The notes below the pieces were generated by a model, which saw only the letters and a list, made by a program, of their open reading frames with translations, did not search any database and was not told where the DNA came from. DNA of 64,000 bases from Planctomycetota bacterium. Its GTDB lineage: Bacteria > Planctomycetota > Planctomycetia > Pirellulales > Thermoguttaceae. The DNA lies in NCBI GenBank assembly GCA_029550925.1, contig JAKPGL010000094.1, forward strand, positions 1-64,000. Direction: 5' to 3'. The translations under genes were made by a program, and so were the position numbers. Shown in pieces: positions 479 through 8,171 of the stretch (its first letter is position 1; each line of letters starts with the position of its first letter).

Positions 479-973
479 TTACTGGCCGCTGGAGCTGCTC
501 GAGCTAGCGGCGGTCGTACCTTCCACGCCGCCGGTCATGATCGTGGAGCGAATATCCACCAGCACACTTTGCAAGGCCGACCCCCGTTTAGCGCATCGGC
601 CGATGGCGTATTTCGGGTCGGTTACTTTTTTGACCCGTTGGTTCTGCAAACCGCCGGTAGCCCCGGCCGGGCCAATCCAATCGCCCAGTTCTAAATCCGT
701 CGCTGCACATTCGAACTCGAACACGCCGGTTGTAGCCACCCGGATAGGCCGATCCTGCCCTGCCGGGCTCCGCTGCATCGCCACGCCCAAAAACCGGTCG
801 GCAAACTGTTCCTGATTGGCCGACTCGCTGCCCTGGTTGGGCAAGAGGCTAGCCGGTTTGGCCTGGCCGCCGTCCTGCCAAATCAGATCGCCGATTTCGA
901 CCTCCGTCTCCGCAGCCACCGCCGCCACAACCGGATTGGTCTCCCCGTATCGCCAGCGCATCACATCCGCCAT
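479..973 (-). CDS. Phage capsid decoration / DUF2190-like protein
   Basis: 164 aa. It has no catalytic motif and a short beta-rich body with a Ser-rich tail (SSSSSSGQ). It is the last visible gene of the head cassette, directly after the prohead protease. In lambda-type modules that slot holds the head-stabilising decoration protein, and the repeated phrases on being an identity/counter of 'water, pressure' typical of DUF2190 cement proteins (for example the N-terminal AVAAETEVEIGDLIW) fit that family. The start at 973 is preferred over the ATG at 979 because AGGAGG lies six bases upstream. The major capsid gene expected next is not in the 478 bases to the left. The assignment rests mostly on context. 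Confidence 0.6.
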   Translation of the reverse strand: MADVMRWRYGETNPVVAAVAAETEVEIGDLIWQDGGQAKPASLLPNQGSESANQEQFADRFLGVAMQRSPAGQDRPIRVATTGVFEFECAATDLELGDWIGPAGATGGLQNQRVKKVTDPKYAIGRCAKRGSALQSVLVDIRSTIMTGGVEGTTAASSSSSSGQ

Positions 974-1020
974 GGACATCCTCCTCTTAAAAAGTTCTGT
1001 AAAAGGTAATCTACAGATTT

Positions 1021-1974
1021 TCAGGTGATCGCTCGAACAAACTCCTGAACATTTCGCACCATGCCGGCCAGGACCAGTTGATCCCGGGCAATTGGCCGGG
1101 ACCCGCCGTCCAGGCTGACTCCGGCCAGTTGGCCCAGCGCCCGGCCTGTCGGACGGCCGGAAATCGCTTCCTGCAAAACCACGCGGACCAATCGGGCACG
1201 GTCTTCCACCAGCGCACGAACCGCCGCCTCATCCGGCGCCGTAAGCAGACTCTGCATAAACTCCTGGCTGGCAATCAGCCGGGACAACGGGTCCGCCGAT
1301 TCTGGCTCCGGTAGCCGATGCTCGGCGAAAAGCCTGCGGATCAAAAGCCTCCGGTTTGCCTCGGTTTCCAGGGTCCGGAGCCGGGCCAGTTCCGCCTCCA
1401 AAGCGGCGATCCGTTGGGCCTGTGCGTCCTTCGGTTGGGAACCAGGAGGGAGCAAAGGGGCAGGCTGCGGCTCGGCCGACTCAAATAGCCCCTGGGTAGT
1501 CGCCGGGTCGGCCACCACATCCACGCTGTGGACCCGTAGGATGGCTTCGACCACCGTCTGGCCGTCCCGCCGGGCCAGGCGGGCCTCCACATGATGCGAC
1601 AAGCCCACATTCTCCGGACAATGCTCGGCGTCCCAAGCCAACTGCTCCGCCAAAGGATGCTTGGGGTTAAAACACAGATCGGCGAAAAGTCCTTCGTCGG
1701 CCCGAAACGCCGCTTGCCGAATTACGCCCAACCGATCCCGATAGTCCCGGGGCGAAGGGGTCGGGATAGGCGTATGATTGATGTTCACCTTCGCCCCTTC
1801 GTAAAGCCCGATCGCCTCCTGAATGGCCTGGGGCAGATACACCCGGCCGTTTCGACTTCGCAGGCCCAGGATTTTCACGCCCCGGATCAGCCCCTTTTGC
1901 CGATCCACCCGCAGGCCCGCACCTTGCCAATCGACAACCTCCCGAATGGCTACGACAGTGCTTTCGGCGTCCAT
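1021..1974 (-). CDS. Phage prohead protease / Mu I-like protein
   Basis: 317 aa. The N-terminal half (about 1-165) resembles prohead maturation proteases that also shape the scaffold: LGLRSRNGRVY, then NINHTPIPTPSPRDYRDRLGVI, then VGLSHHVEARL and VHSVDVVADPATT. The serine and histidine in GLSHHVE are plausible catalytic residues. The C-terminal half is a charged, coiled-coil-rich region (about 190-260), the expected scaffold part. A strong Shine-Dalgarno (AGGAG, eight bases before the ATG) supports the start. It follows the portal gene by 123 bases on the same strand, the usual order portal-protease-decoration-capsid. Substrate and cleavage sites cannot be read from the sequence. Confidence 0.7.
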   Translation of the reverse strand: MDAESTVVAIREVVDWQGAGLRVDRQKGLIRGVKILGLRSRNGRVYLPQAIQEAIGLYEGAKVNINHTPIPTPSPRDYRDRLGVIRQAAFRADEGLFADLCFNPKHPLAEQLAWDAEHCPENVGLSHHVEARLARRDGQTVVEAILRVHSVDVVADPATTQGLFESAEPQPAPLLPPGSQPKDAQAQRIAALEAELARLRTLETEANRRLLIRRLFAEHRLPEPESADPLSRLIASQEFMQSLLTAPDEAAVRALVEDRARLVRVVLQEAISGRPTGRALGQLAGVSLDGGSRPIARDQLVLAGMVRNVQEFVRAIT

Positions 1975-2097: not shown

Positions 2098-3684
2098 TTA
2101 CTCCTGGATGAGCGTAGTGGGCGGAATAGAACGTCCGGCAGCGGATTCCGCGGAATGGGCAGAATCGCCCGCCGATCCGGCCACCCGACCAGCGCCCGCC
2201 GGGCCGATTTCCCGGTCCGGGTCCAATCCGTGCCGAAGGGCCATCGTGCGGGCCGACATCGCACCGGAAAGCACCAGAATCCGATCCGCCTGGGCCTCCC
2301 GAAGCCGATCCCGGGCGCACAAAGGCGGCGGCACACACTGAATCTCTACATCCTCGACGGCTTGTCGAGGCAATCGGCCCGCCTCCGCCCCGGCCCGCAG
2401 GGCAAACCAAAGCACCTCCAAATCGTCGGTGATCATGTCCTGCTGGAGCCGCTCGAACATCTTGACGGCCGGTCCCTCGGCCACCATGGTGCTGGCGTAG
2501 TTGGCGTTGGAGGCGTCGCTGGTGAGCATAAATTCCGGCATCACCAGCCGGGCCGCTATGGCCCGCAATTCCGCCTGCAGCACCGCCACATAATTGGCCG
2601 CATTGATCCGGGAGGCCGGAAAGTCGTAATCCACCCCGGCAAACACGTCCAGGATGGTGCCCGGGCCATAGCGACGGATCGGGGCGGCTCGGAACCCGGC
2701 GCCTAGCTGGCCTTCGGCTTCCTGCTGGATGAATTGTTCTAGGGCGCTTCGGGTGGCGGTGGTGTGTTTGCGGATAAGCGCAATGGCCGACTGCACCTCG
2801 GCCAGCACGCTCATATTGCGCAGCAGTTTCTCCGCCCGGCGCAAGTTGGCCCGTACCGGATAAAACAGCGGCAACCCCCGCTTCACATTGGCGTCCACGC
2901 CCAGTTTGCGGTGCTGGACCCACGCCGCATCGACAAACCGGCCGTCGATAAAATAGCCCTGCACCATCTCCACGTCCTGCCGATCGGTGAGAATACCGAA
3001 ACTGGCGGCCGGATTGGCCGACTCCGACGGCGGCGTGCTCACCTGTTCCGGCTCCACAAACCGGACCCGTGTCATGCCGTCCGGCCCCACAAAAAGCCGA
3101 AGGAATACTTCGCCGTCCCGATCCTTGCGCCGGACGATCTCCTGCTGCCGATGGTGCCATTTGTTGATGCGTAGGAATTCGTCCAGGAAATGTTCCACCT
3201 GGGCCAGCACCTCCGTGGGCGTCTGTCGGCCCGGCTTGGGCGCAATGCGATACTTATGTCCGGGTCCGACGATATAGCTGATTCTGTTTTCGTGACCATT
3301 GATAGCAAACTCGTTGCCGACGGCCAGTGCGCGGCACTGGGCGCGGATGTCGGCCAGTTGTGCTTCGGTGGTGTAGGCGGCGCCTGCCGGAGAGCCAGGC
3401 CGGGGCAGATCGCTCAGCCTGGCCCAGCGCATCCCCGCGTCATCATAGAGGGCCTCGTCCGGATCGACATAATCGTCCCAGAGCCGATCCAGCGATTCCC
3501 GCACCCGCCGTTCCAACCGCGCAAGTTCCCGAAACAAGGCGTTCAGGCTGGATGGCCCACCCGGAACGCCCGAACCGTCGTTAGCGCCGGTATTGGGACG
3601 GTTATCAGGCTGTTGGTCTTCGCCCGATAAGGATCCTCCGGTTAAGTGAGAATTCGGCTGAAAAGAAGAAGCATTTTTGTTCAT
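2098..3684 (-). CDS. Phage portal protein (lambda-type)
   Basis: 528 aa. Forms the dodecameric ring through which DNA enters the head. Features of lambda-type portals are visible. There is an N-terminal low-complexity region (1-50). A conserved core follows with RKDRDGEVFLRLF and MVQGYFIDGRFVDAAWVQHRKLGVDANVKRGLP-type segments (about 225-300), then a helical stem with AEKLLRNMSVLAEVQSAIALIR. A C-terminal part with LVMPEFMLTSDASNANYAS (about 420) is the membrane-insertion-like motif seen in this family. The start is set at the ATG with AGGAGGA six bases upstream, because the longer frame runs into the end of the terminase gene. It lies between large terminase and protease, as expected. Confidence 0.85.
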   Translation of the reverse strand: MNKNASSFQPNSHLTGGSLSGEDQQPDNRPNTGANDGSGVPGGPSSLNALFRELARLERRVRESLDRLWDDYVDPDEALYDDAGMRWARLSDLPRPGSPAGAAYTTEAQLADIRAQCRALAVGNEFAINGHENRISYIVGPGHKYRIAPKPGRQTPTEVLAQVEHFLDEFLRINKWHHRQQEIVRRKDRDGEVFLRLFVGPDGMTRVRFVEPEQVSTPPSESANPAASFGILTDRQDVEMVQGYFIDGRFVDAAWVQHRKLGVDANVKRGLPLFYPVRANLRRAEKLLRNMSVLAEVQSAIALIRKHTTATRSALEQFIQQEAEGQLGAGFRAAPIRRYGPGTILDVFAGVDYDFPASRINAANYVAVLQAELRAIAARLVMPEFMLTSDASNANYASTMVAEGPAVKMFERLQQDMITDDLEVLWFALRAGAEAGRLPRQAVEDVEIQCVPPPLCARDRLREAQADRILVLSGAMSARTMALRHGLDPDREIGPAGAGRVAGSAGDSAHSAESAAGRSIPPTTLIQE

Positions 3685-3772: not shown

Positions 3773-5620
3773 CTATAGAAGACCGACGGGCAATCGGCTT
3801 CCCAGGCCGTCGCTGGGTAGCGTCTGGAGGTTTTCGGCGGCAAGGCGGACGGCCATTTCCAGGGCGTCCGGCCCGTCGTCGTGGTCGCCTAGCGGGAAAT
3901 CGCGCAGTTGGCTTACCAGGAGCCGGGTCAATGGGCAGTCGGCCTTGAACCGGAGCCGACGCTGCGCCAAAAGCGGCCCCAAACGCCGGATCCGCACCTC
4001 CTTATTCACCCGGTTTTCCACCATCAGCAGCCGAACACTCCACAAGCCCGCCTGCCGAAACTGGCGTTCAAACTCCGCCCCGAAAAGCTCCTGGAACTGA
4101 TTGCTTTCGATGCCCAGAAGTTCTGGTCGGACTCGTCGGACCAGTTCTACCCCTTGGGCGACGATTTCTGGGGCCGAGCGGCGGGCAAGGTCCGCCTGCA
4201 CATAGACGATTCCCTGCCGATCCACCCCCACCCACACAAAGGCCGAGTAATCGCCCCGCCGGGCGTCCGCCCCCTTGCTGGGGTCCAGGGCCATGACCAC
4301 CAGACGCAGGTTTTGCGGCCAGCAGTCGAACCAGATGGCTTCCTCGAAATACTCTTCTGGCCATTCGCACAGATCGGGGTTGATGGGCGAGTTTTGTTTT
4401 TCTCGCTCGAAGGCGGCCCGGCCGCTCTCGGCCCGCATACACATGAGGGCATAAAGGTCTTCATATTCCGGCCAGAGCACCCGTGCGCCGGCCAGCATCG
4501 CCTGTCGGTGGGTCTGGAAAAATCGGCGAGCTTCCGCCTCGGCGTTGGGAAGCGTCGGATTTGTGTACAAAGATTCCCAAACCTCCCACAGGCCCTGATT
4601 GTCCGGCCATCGGCAGATGGATTGAAAAATGCGGCTCGTCCAACCGGCGGTCCGGTGCAACTCCAGGGCCAATGCCTCCCGATGCAAGGCGGTGGCCAGG
4701 TGAACGATATTGGTTTGGGGGCTACCGGCTTTCATCAGGGTGCCGTGGAACCAGAGTCGGCTGCGCTGGCGGGCCTGGGCGGATTGGATATGGCTATCGT
4801 TTTGCAGGTCGTCGCAGATGATCAGCGTGGGCCGATCGGCTCGGTATCGTCGGCCTCGCATTCGCTGGCCTGCGCCCAGGGCCTCGATCTTCACCCCGTT
4901 TCGCAGCACGATGGTTCCCATGCGCCAGATCGGTCCTCGGCCCACGGCCTGCGGATAGTCGGCGGCCAAAAGCGGATTGTCTTCCAATTCCGCCTTGACG
5001 TTTTCCAGATGCGCACAAGCCTGATGGCGGGTATCGGAGACGATCCAGATGTACGGTTCCTGGCGGCTCAGGGCGCCGCGGAGCACATAGGCCAGGCTGG
5101 CCAGGGTGGATTTGGCGCTGCCGCGCGGGGCCAGCACATTGAGTTTTGTTCCCCGTCGCCCGTGCATCCGATCCAACTGGAAGGCCAACCAGCGGTGCAT
5201 ACTGGAGGGCGGCAGGCGAAAGTGATGCGGTAGATACCGACGCGCCCAGTCAAGGAGACTCTCCGGTCCGTCGCCCCGTTGGCGGCGACGCTGTTGGCCG
5301 TGCTGCCAGGCCAATTCCTCCTGAAAAAACCGCAGCCACCGAACCGACGCACCGTCCGCACCAAGTGCGCCCCCATCTGGGGTTTTCTCCTCTGCACCGT
5401 CGCCGCCAGGGCCGGCATCGGAACAGGAACATATTTTTCCGTTCGACGAGGCCAAACCCGATTGGAAAGAGGGCGTTTCCACCATGGCCGACATACGTTG
5501 TTGCTCCAAACTCCGCGCCAACGCCTCGGCCAGAAGCCGAGCCGGCGATTTCACCCGATAAACACCCTGGACCAAGAAAGCCCCCATGAGGGCGTCGGAT
5601 TGGGATTTGCGTTGTTCCAT
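3773..5620 (-). CDS. Phage terminase large subunit
   Basis: 615 aa packaging motor. The ATPase domain has a Walker A variant APRGSAKST at about 164-172 and a Walker B TLIICDD at about 265-271. The C-terminal RNase-H-like nuclease begins VVMALDPSKG (about 441) with acidic residues at about 446 and 457 and later LGIESNQFQ. The first 100 or so residues are an extension without recognisable motifs, including a short GPGGDGAEEK-type linker. The start is the ATG preceded by AAGGAA; a longer frame from a TTG at 5653 is less likely. It follows the small terminase by 42 bases. Intact: no frameshift and no loss of key residues. Confidence 0.9.
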   Translation of the reverse strand: MEQRKSQSDALMGAFLVQGVYRVKSPARLLAEALARSLEQQRMSAMVETPSFQSGLASSNGKICSCSDAGPGGDGAEEKTPDGGALGADGASVRWLRFFQEELAWQHGQQRRRQRGDGPESLLDWARRYLPHHFRLPPSSMHRWLAFQLDRMHGRRGTKLNVLAPRGSAKSTLASLAYVLRGALSRQEPYIWIVSDTRHQACAHLENVKAELEDNPLLAADYPQAVGRGPIWRMGTIVLRNGVKIEALGAGQRMRGRRYRADRPTLIICDDLQNDSHIQSAQARQRSRLWFHGTLMKAGSPQTNIVHLATALHREALALELHRTAGWTSRIFQSICRWPDNQGLWEVWESLYTNPTLPNAEAEARRFFQTHRQAMLAGARVLWPEYEDLYALMCMRAESGRAAFEREKQNSPINPDLCEWPEEYFEEAIWFDCWPQNLRLVVMALDPSKGADARRGDYSAFVWVGVDRQGIVYVQADLARRSAPEIVAQGVELVRRVRPELLGIESNQFQELFGAEFERQFRQAGLWSVRLLMVENRVNKEVRIRRLGPLLAQRRLRFKADCPLTRLLVSQLRDFPLGDHDDGPDALEMAVRLAAENLQTLPSDGLGSRLPVGLL

Positions 5621-5662: not shown

Positions 5663-6130
5663 TCATCCAGTGGATGGGTTTTCGCAGTCGGCGGGTGGTT
5701 GCAAGACGCCGGTGGCCGTGGTCAGCCGCTGGAGAATCCGTTTCCGGTAGCGTGCGGGGACCTCCTCAGTAACAATGGCCACCAGTTCGTTGATAAACCG
5801 CCGCATCTGGGCGAAGGTGATCGTATCGGGCCGGCGCGGTGCGTAGCGCTGGGGCCGGGTGCGTTCCAGCGCCCAGGCGGCGGCTCGCCAATAGCGGCTC
5901 TCCAGGGCGGCTTTGCGGATGGACTGCAAATAGGTGAGTTCTGGGGCGTCGGCGGCTTTGGCCAGTGCGGCGGCAAACTCCGGGTCTCGCTGCGCCTCGT
6001 TGCGGATGGTCCGGGGTGTACAGCCCACAAAACGAGCTGCCATCGCCCGCGTACCGCCCAGCGAAACGATCGTCAAAATCTGTCCCTTCTTCGTCGCATC
6101 CAACCAGTTGGGTCGGCCCCGCTTGGCCAT
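5663..6130 (-). CDS. Phage terminase small subunit-like DNA-binding protein
   Basis: 155 aa. The N-terminal third contains a helix-turn-helix-like stretch, IVSLGGTRAMAARFVGCTPRTIRNEAQRD (about 18-47), the form used by small terminases and homeodomain-like recruiters to bind the packaging site. The rest is helical and may serve oligomerisation. The start follows AGGGAG by nine bases. It sits just upstream of the large terminase in the same direction, the classical terS-terL order. It could instead be a generic HTH regulator, but the neighbour argues against that. Confidence 0.75.
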   Translation of the reverse strand: MAKRGRPNWLDATKKGQILTIVSLGGTRAMAARFVGCTPRTIRNEAQRDPEFAAALAKAADAPELTYLQSIRKAALESRYWRAAAWALERTRPQRYAPRRPDTITFAQMRRFINELVAIVTEEVPARYRKRILQRLTTATGVLQPPADCENPSTG

Positions 6131-6270: not shown

Positions 6271-7362
6271 CTATCCAAGAAATTCCGCGGACACCACGGC
6301 CCGACCGAAAGAACCGCGGTACTTCGGCAGTCCCCGTTGCACCGGCTTGGAACCGGTCTTTCGCACGGCGGTGATCCGCCAATGTCGGCTTCGGCGCAAA
6401 TGGCCGAGGATGGCCGGGTGGCTGGCGGTGATGCTCAGCCGACGGCCCCAGGAGCGGTACAGCTCGGCCGTCGCCTCCAGCACCGCTGCGCCAATGCCGA
6501 CGCCCTGAAAATCCGGCAGCACCACCAGTCGGCTGATCCGCCAATGCTGCTTTCGACCCGGAATGGGCAGGACTGCACAAAAAGCTACCGCCGTTTCATT
6601 CCAGACGGCCAAATAACACTGGGCCATCGGATTCAACCGGCCGCTCAGATAGTGATGCGGCGCAAAGGCCCGCCACGCCGAACGCGCGCAACGAAATATC
6701 GCCAGCTCGATCGGCGGTCGCTGAAGACACCCTCGCTGAAAGGCGCCGTCGGCCAGGTCGAGGAGCCAATCCGGCTGGAGCCAATCGGTCACGTCATAGT
6801 GGCAGGTAACGGCCACGAATCGACAGCGGATCAGCCCCTTGTCAATCGCCCGGCGAATGGCCGCCGAGGCAATCCTCGCTACGTTCCGATCCACGACACT
6901 GGTAAACTCGTCGAAGACCACAAGCGGCGGCGCGGTGTCTAGTGTCTGTGCGTTTGCCTCGGCCAGCGCCCGGGCCAAATCGCAGCGAAACCGCTCGCCC
7001 GTGCTGAGCACATGATAAGGTTTGATCCAACTGGGCGGCGAACCGAAACCAACGCTGGTCAAAAGACCTGTGATCTCATGGATCGGCCGATCGCCAAAAC
7101 AGTCGATCACCGCCCGGTCCTGGGGCCAGACGGGTTGCTGGCAGACGGCCGGGCCGAAAAGATGGCGGGCCAACTGGCTTTTGCCGCTGCCCGAAGGACC
7201 GACAATCAGGCCCACCCGCCACGCCCAGCTCAGCTCTGGCCGTTGGACCCGGATCCGCTGCACCGCCTTCTGCTGAATCGGCACGTCGAACATGCCGGCC
7301 GCCTGCCGGACCCGAAACGAGTCGTACACTGGACAGGTTAACGTAAGTTCAAGCTCTGGCAT
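6271..7362 (-). CDS. ABC-type ATPase fused to GNAT acetyltransferase (phage-associated)
   Basis: 363 aa. Residues about 45-205 are an ABC-class ATPase: Walker A GPSGSGKS (55-62), an altered signature LSTGE (119-123) followed by [10 protein letters not shown], Walker [13 protein letters not shown] (147-158) and an H-loop histidine in VTCHYD (about 188). No membrane segments are present, so it is not a transporter subunit. Residues about 215-340 are a GNAT domain with acetyl-CoA-binding motif [15 protein letters not shown] (278-291). It lies between the ParB-like gene and the terminases. From what is known of the Mu Mom protein (a GNAT-fold DNA-modifying enzyme) and of ABC-GNAT genes in mobile elements, a role in modifying or handling phage DNA is possible but unproven. 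Start at the ATG after GGGGAA. Confidence 0.8.
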
Positions 7363-7379
7363 GATGGTTCCCCGTAGGG

Positions 7380-7495
7380 CCGGGGCGCTGCCCCGGCCGG
7401 ATTTCTACTGGATGTTGGTCGGATTTTCGGCGTAGGCAGAGCCTACGCCCTACCACCCCGGGTACAGCCCGGGGCGCTGCCCCGGCCGGATTCCC
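7380..7495. repeat. Paired GC-rich hairpins between ParB-like and ABC-GNAT genes
   Basis: The 136-base gap contains two direct copies of a GGGGCGCTGCCCC-GGCCGGATT unit (7384-7405 and 7470-7491), each able to form a hairpin. Between them is a GTAGGC...GCCTAC inverted repeat. They could slow or partly terminate transcription inside the cassette. No promoter is evident. Confidence 0.55.
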
Positions 7496-7498
7496 CCC

Positions 7499-8053
7499 TT
7501 ACAACGTGAGCAGTCGGCAGGTGTAGCCCTCTTGGCTGAGTCGTTCATAAAGTTGGCGTTGGTCGTCTTCATCTCGACATTCGACCACTACCTGGAAAGT
7601 TTCCGGGATGGGCACATCCGGCGGCATTTCCGACTCTTCGGGCACAAGCGCCGAACCGCCCGACATCGAGTCCAGCACCGCCTGGAGGGCCTGGTTCTGG
7701 GTGTGGACCTCGGCCAGGAGCTGTTGGAGGACTTCTTCGTTCGGCTCGGCCAATCCGGCCAGGGGATCCAAGAGGGCCAGCAGTTTGGCCGACTCCTGGT
7801 CGTCCAGGTCCAGCACCAAAACGGGCACTTCCATATCCGGGGTAAGCTCGGCCCGCAGATGGCCGTCGATTAGCTCCAGGGCGCCGTCGGGCAATCGGCG
7901 GGCCAACAGGGCGTCGGCATAGCCGATCTCGGCCAAAAGCCCCCGAAGGGCCTCCTGCTGATGGGCCGGGTGAAGACGCCAATTTTTCGGATTAGGCCGA
8001 AGCTCCTTGGCCCGCACCCGCACCAACTCCACGATCCGATCCCGAATCTGCAT
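7499..8053 (-). CDS. ParB/Srx-fold nuclease-like protein
   Basis: 184 aa. The N-terminal domain (about 10-90) is ParB-like: LRPNPKNWRLHP, an acidic helix, then the ParB box LIDGHLRAE (about 61-69) and VPVLVLDLDDQE. The C-terminal half is acidic with a coiled-coil-like stretch (LLAEVHTQNQALQAVLDSM) and a final small domain ending QEGYTCRLLTL. ParB-fold proteins of this size near phage terminases are not segregation factors; several families bind CTP or act as nucleases or DNA-modification partners. The start is the ATG with GGAGG seven bases upstream. It is transcribed before the ABC-GNAT gene, 136 bases away. Confidence 0.8.
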   Translation of the reverse strand: MQIRDRIVELVRVRAKELRPNPKNWRLHPAHQQEALRGLLAEIGYADALLARRLPDGALELIDGHLRAELTPDMEVPVLVLDLDDQESAKLLALLDPLAGLAEPNEEVLQQLLAEVHTQNQALQAVLDSMSGGSALVPEESEMPPDVPIPETFQVVVECRDEDDQRQLYERLSQEGYTCRLLTL

Positions 8054-8171
8054 CAATGTACCTCCATTGCCGAACGTGTTTGGCCTGTCCATTTGGCCAC
8101 TGACTGTTTGTAGCTACCGATCTTCTCTCCGGCCTCAACGGAGAAAGCTGGTTCCTAACAGGCAATGCTCC

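Follow-up and report, generated by a model that had tools for sequence, protein, structure and literature searches.

What does a protein that joins an ABC-class ATPase to a GNAT domain do between a ParB-like gene and the terminase genes of a phage packaging cassette? The question is raised by a contig of a planctomycete of the family Thermoguttaceae, of which we analyzed a stretch of 64,000 nucleotides (the window). A first-pass annotation, made from the sequence alone, had described a ParB/Srx-fold protein, an ABC-GNAT fusion, and both terminase genes, and had proposed that the pair marks, counts, or protects phage DNA before packaging. Every one of these features is present, on the minus strand. 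Our answer is that the two genes most likely form a module for the acylation of DNA bases, comparable to the Mom system of phage Mu.

On the minus strand, the ParB/Srx-fold gene (8053..7499, encoding 184 aa) is followed by the fusion gene (7362..6271, 363 aa), the terminase small subunit (5663..6130; phrog_4102, its start set by homology), the terminase large subunit (3773..5620; phrog_38, E = 3e-79), and a lambda-type portal (2098..3684; PF05136). Beyond the portal, on the same strand, lie a conserved cassette gene at the usual position of the head protease (1021..1974), a gene for a head decoration or cement-like protein (479..979), whose cassette homologue matches PF09956, and then the edge of the contig. 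The ParB-like reading frame is open to 8092 (8092..7499); the start at 8053 (MQIRDR...), which is also the coordinate in the first-pass annotation, fits the relatives best. Between the ParB and ABC-GNAT genes lies a dispersed GC-rich hairpin repeat (7370..7495), which has 20 further partial matches of 26–90 bp across the genome.

The fusion matches phrog_11143 over nearly its full length (E = 7e-95, residues 12–363 of 363), a family with 51 phage records, no fewer than 598 viral candidates, and 426 genome candidates. Its ABC-class domain (residues 1–215; 6718..7362, minus strand) has a Walker A motif, an LSTGE signature (residue 119), a Walker B DE, a D-loop, and an H-loop (CHYD, residue 187), with GPSGSGKS at residue 55 and a further 11-letter segment at residue 148. 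The GNAT domain (residues 216–363; 6274..6717, minus strand; PF00583, E = 4e-9) has an HHYL motif (HHYLS at residue 236), R278, and the CoA motif Q286-G287-x-G289-x-G291; the string FQGVGIG falls in GNAT motif A. By sequence the ABC domain stays under the Pfam cut-off, yet it is clear in the AlphaFold model of the fusion (pLDDT 94.4, pTM 0.90), which has structural matches to ABC proteins (Z about 14) and to GNATs (Z 15.9; CoA complexes rank near the top). A sequence search for solved structures found none specific to the ABC-GNAT family and returned generic ABC proteins only. Across 243 sequences, K61, S120, G122, D151, E152, D158, and H188 are kept in essentially 100%, and the QxxGxG-type CoA motif is conserved in 95–100%; in the window's fusion, every ATPase and CoA-motif residue is intact. 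A role of the ABC domain as part of a transporter was rejected, no membrane partner being recognized in the neighborhoods examined.

The ParB-like protein carries the box LIDGHLRAE at residue 61, and its ParB/Srx fold is supported by PHROG ParB matches (E about 4e-8), by PF02195 matches in its relatives, and by the predicted structure of a fused relative, which aligns to ParB structures at 2.0 Å over 88 columns. Structure prediction, one of the checks suggested in the first-pass annotation, thus gives clear ABC and GNAT folds in the fusion itself and the ParB fold by way of a relative. A search for the pair across relatives, another of those checks, shows that the association is not random: A ParB-like gene lies upstream of ABC-GNAT in 167 of the 172 related loci with room for one, when about 0.004 would be expected by chance per 800-nt slot and locus. 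This pairing is far beyond chance. The two genes overlap or almost touch in about half of the pairs, and in one locus (L059) ParB, ABC, and GNAT are fused in a single reading frame; a model of this natural fusion, run for adaptor docking, had a pTM of 0.38, with the ABC part poor. One planctomycete ABC-GNAT gene (L171, 8007-9053) has no ParB gene upstream and lies between genes that are not phage-like on both sides.

The C terminus of the window's ParB protein is an adaptor, or tail, ETFQVVVECRDEDDQRQLYERLSQEGYTCRLLTL (7502..7603, minus strand). In Com-linked Mu-like phages, the adaptor is a stand-alone reading frame of about 54 aa (34/34 loci). It lies upstream in 76 of 82 ABC-GNAT loci vs. 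none of 85 Mom loci. In locus L020, the small reading frame immediately upstream was considered as Com and rejected; it is the adaptor, and the true Com lies one reading frame further upstream.

Terminase genes lie close to the module in 45 of 54 genome loci and 31 of 62 viral loci, as might be expected if the ParB protein and the ABC ATPase together served the terminase in packaging or in counting DNA, with the GNAT domain as an accessory. We regard such a role as highly improbable: No terminase is recognized nearby in half of the viral loci, Mu-like loci sit at the right end of the genome and others in replication regions (Jace and EastWest), and the GNAT active site is as well conserved as the ATPase site. 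Since the module is often found away from the terminase, packaging is not intrinsic to it, and we rejected packaging as the core function on genome context. Two elements of the original proposal, the counting of DNA and the timing before packaging, find no support for the same reasons.

The remaining elements, marking or protecting DNA, draw on the relation to Mu. In the Pseudomonas phage Komp_PAO1_1, the tail-fiber genes are followed by Com (PF10122, E = 9e-21), an adaptor reading frame, ABC-GNAT, and a PurN-like formyltransferase, an arrangement that resembles Mu, whose com-mom sits near the right end. Within the Mu-like subclade, 34 of 82 loci have Com ahead of ABC-GNAT, which there takes the place of mom; in the window itself, ParB stands in place of Com. 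Direct replacement is seen in two groups of phages. The sister Porphyromonas phages 007a and 015a differ in the cargo of the same slot, ABC-GNAT module vs. mom, between flanks whose DNA identity is 88.6% for the 3.2 kb to the left and 82.8% for the 93 bp to the right. The Arthrobacter phages EastWest and BarretLemon have common flanking genes and similar ParB N-domains (53%), followed by ABC-GNAT in the former and Mom in the latter, and the ParB C terminus differs with the enzyme: an adaptor with ABC-GNAT vs. a CPxC zinc motif with Mom. Microbacterium phage Antuna has the same ParB-zinc-Mom form. That the adaptor changes along with the enzyme hints at a targeting route for such enzymes.

A separate Mom is absent from 10 of the 11 ABC-GNAT phages tested. 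The exception, the T4-like Aeromonas phage AsFcp_2 (L026), carries Mom as well as an ABC-GNAT protein, so that the two are not strictly alternatives.

The analogy with Mom is well supported by these replacements, the Com-linked position, and the conserved CoA motif, and on it marking or protecting DNA is the best reading of the module. Mu Mom, a GNAT-fold enzyme according to the literature, has in common with ABC-GNAT its genome slot and an HY motif at the start of the domain, and Com upstream is shared with the Mu-like ABC-GNAT subclade; it differs in lacking the ABC domain and the adaptor, and the similarity in sequence is marginal. The Mom profile weakly matches the GNAT domain of the ABC-GNAT protein of Leptospira phage LE3 (E = 4e-4), and hhalign gives a weak alignment to Mom over about 50 columns (P = 0.003, probability 10%). 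On these profile comparisons we rejected clear homology to Mom, and the GNAT domain may be a mere analogue. A member of the Mom family would be expected to make N6-carbamoylmethyladenine. A shared genome slot shows interchangeable cargo, not an identical reaction.

For the window, the case for DNA-base acylation consists of the architecture, the intact active sites, the constant ParB/adaptor partner, and the replacement of mom at the same site in related phages; because the gene pair takes the place of Mu mom there, it most likely makes a DNA-tagging enzyme. The ParB/Srx-fold protein would bring the enzyme to DNA, its C-terminal adaptor docking onto the ABC-GNAT protein. Lacking a membrane partner, the ABC domain would act as a dimer driven by ATP that may clamp, hold, distort, or remodel DNA; the GNAT domain may then acylate an exocyclic amine of a base, with a CoA thioester as the acyl donor. 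In the window, the module would mark the DNA packaged by the cassette, or host DNA.

GNATs also acylate proteins, which counts against a DNA-base substrate; indeed they mostly acetylate proteins or small molecules, and the best structural matches of the window's GNAT domain are protein or small-molecule GNATs. Phage Rac is reported to acetylate RNA polymerase. The complex could accordingly have a protein as its substrate, be it host RNA polymerase, a head protein, or a defense protein, with the ABC domain as a sensor, and serve in host takeover or anti-defense. We judge this unlikely, given that ABC-GNAT replaces mom, that it occupies a Com-linked position, and that its ParB-fold partner is constant.

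Other systems share parts of the proposed DNA-acylating arrangement. TmcA/NAT10 has an ATPase fused to a GNAT and acts on a base amine, TmcA acetylating cytidine in tRNA, and the TmcA structure 2zpa is among the Foldseek neighbors of the fusion; TmcA shows that an ATPase-GNAT fusion can acetylate a base, although its ATPase is of the helicase type and its substrate is RNA. DndB and DpdB are likewise ParB/Srx-fold proteins within DNA modification operons, but the chemistry there is different, and the window's ParB has an ABC-GNAT adaptor. Of the 55 loci of the Mu-like/Gordonia subclade with room for it, 37 have a PurN-like formyltransferase directly after ABC-GNAT (e.g., L020, 6107-6724; L025, 6125-6598). 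It is perhaps, speculatively, a second modification step in that subclade, which would fit formylation of the added amine. No formyltransferase was recognized beside the window's gene pair.

The module is already known as a prediction. DNA-base acylation by an ABC ATPase-GNAT protein was reportedly predicted by Iyer et al. in 2013. The accessible text of a later paper (PMC7824862; Iyer et al. 2021) restates the 2013 prediction, that an ABC ATPase-coupled GNAT makes an uncharacterized acyl modification of a DNA base, with pT24 and QAX98348.1 as examples. The protein family is that of the window's fusion, and QAX98348.1 is the AsFcp_2 protein, found here as H10/L026. In its accessible text, the paper names a few jumbo phages and does not mention a Com link, a mom swap, the adaptor, or a planctomycete cassette; the replacement of mom, the switching adaptor, and the apparently domesticated cassette are new here. 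In the literature searched, we found no experimental test of DNA acylation by ABC-GNAT. The published prediction becomes testable through the natural phage pairs, which differ at one slot (mom vs. the ABC-GNAT module), so that their virion DNA is directly comparable.

Within Thermoguttaceae, the ABC-GNAT gene is widespread (73 of 119 genomes, or 36 of 43 when only good genomes are counted; 36 of 40 genera), but across the order as a whole its distribution is patchy, with 119 carriers among 292 good genomes and 70 among 123 genera. The cassette is compact, usually single-copy, and of a head-and-packaging type: It encodes a terminase, a portal, a cement protein (PF09956), a capsid protein (PF25209), and a LamG protein. 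In its vicinity, neither integrase nor replication genes were recognized, nor were tail genes out to about 10 kb. Its genes are under purifying selection (dN/dS 0.08–0.25).

Among 30 genomes, distances correlate with those of rpoB for ABC-GNAT (r = 0.62), terminase (r = 0.84), and portal (r = 0.89), none of 5000 permutations being as high. Phages that track their hosts also yield some congruence, and the fixed chromosomal site therefore carries most weight. In one genus (g78) and its sister genus (g85), the cassettes mostly have 9–12 flanking genes in common (six in one pair), in largely the same order, and both host genes that flank the window's cassette are present at the same place in a congener. 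Vertical inheritance at a fixed site holds within genera and for one sister genus.

With these properties, the cassette looks like a domesticated, long-resident, slowly evolving chromosomal element rather than a visiting virus. It could also be a family of ordinary prophages that enter the same hosts again and again, the congruent trees reflecting phage-host co-divergence, and both the patchiness in the order and the many free viral relatives would fit. We think this rather doubtful (a judgment on a separate scale, concerning the cassette and not the enzyme) in view of the common site and largely collinear flanks across a genus and its sister genus, the host genes shared with the congener, the usual single copy without integrase or replication genes seen nearby, and the portal-rpoB correlation.

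As a domesticated element, the cassette is a possible, candidate gene transfer agent. Like gene transfer agents of the RcGTA type, it has head-and-packaging genes kept vertically under purifying selection; it differs from them in that no tail genes are seen near it. Tentatively, it may be an old cassette of phage origin, passed on vertically and serving as a new gene transfer agent or a DNA-packing capsid, with its own ParB-guided DNA-acylation enzyme, which would mark the packaged DNA. If so, the chemical mark could guard that DNA, for instance from restriction once it reaches a recipient. A planctomycete gene transfer agent would lie outside the lineages we are aware of, and we know of none with its own DNA-marking enzyme, of which this cassette would, if the reading is true, be the first.

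In some genomes, other genes intervene between parts of the cassette. Unrelated genes follow the portal gene in a further genus (g87), as if the phage-derived block were split, and lie between the portal and capsid genes in genome G232 (L445, 5500-12700; see also G212, L406, 6800-10000). In several rumen or gut Thermoguttaceae, a second reading frame, which can reach about 728 aa and lies upstream of the cassette on the other strand, weakly matches the ABC-GNAT profile (L188, 1608-3794; L176, 1631-3817; L184, 1680-3263; L186, 689-2875).
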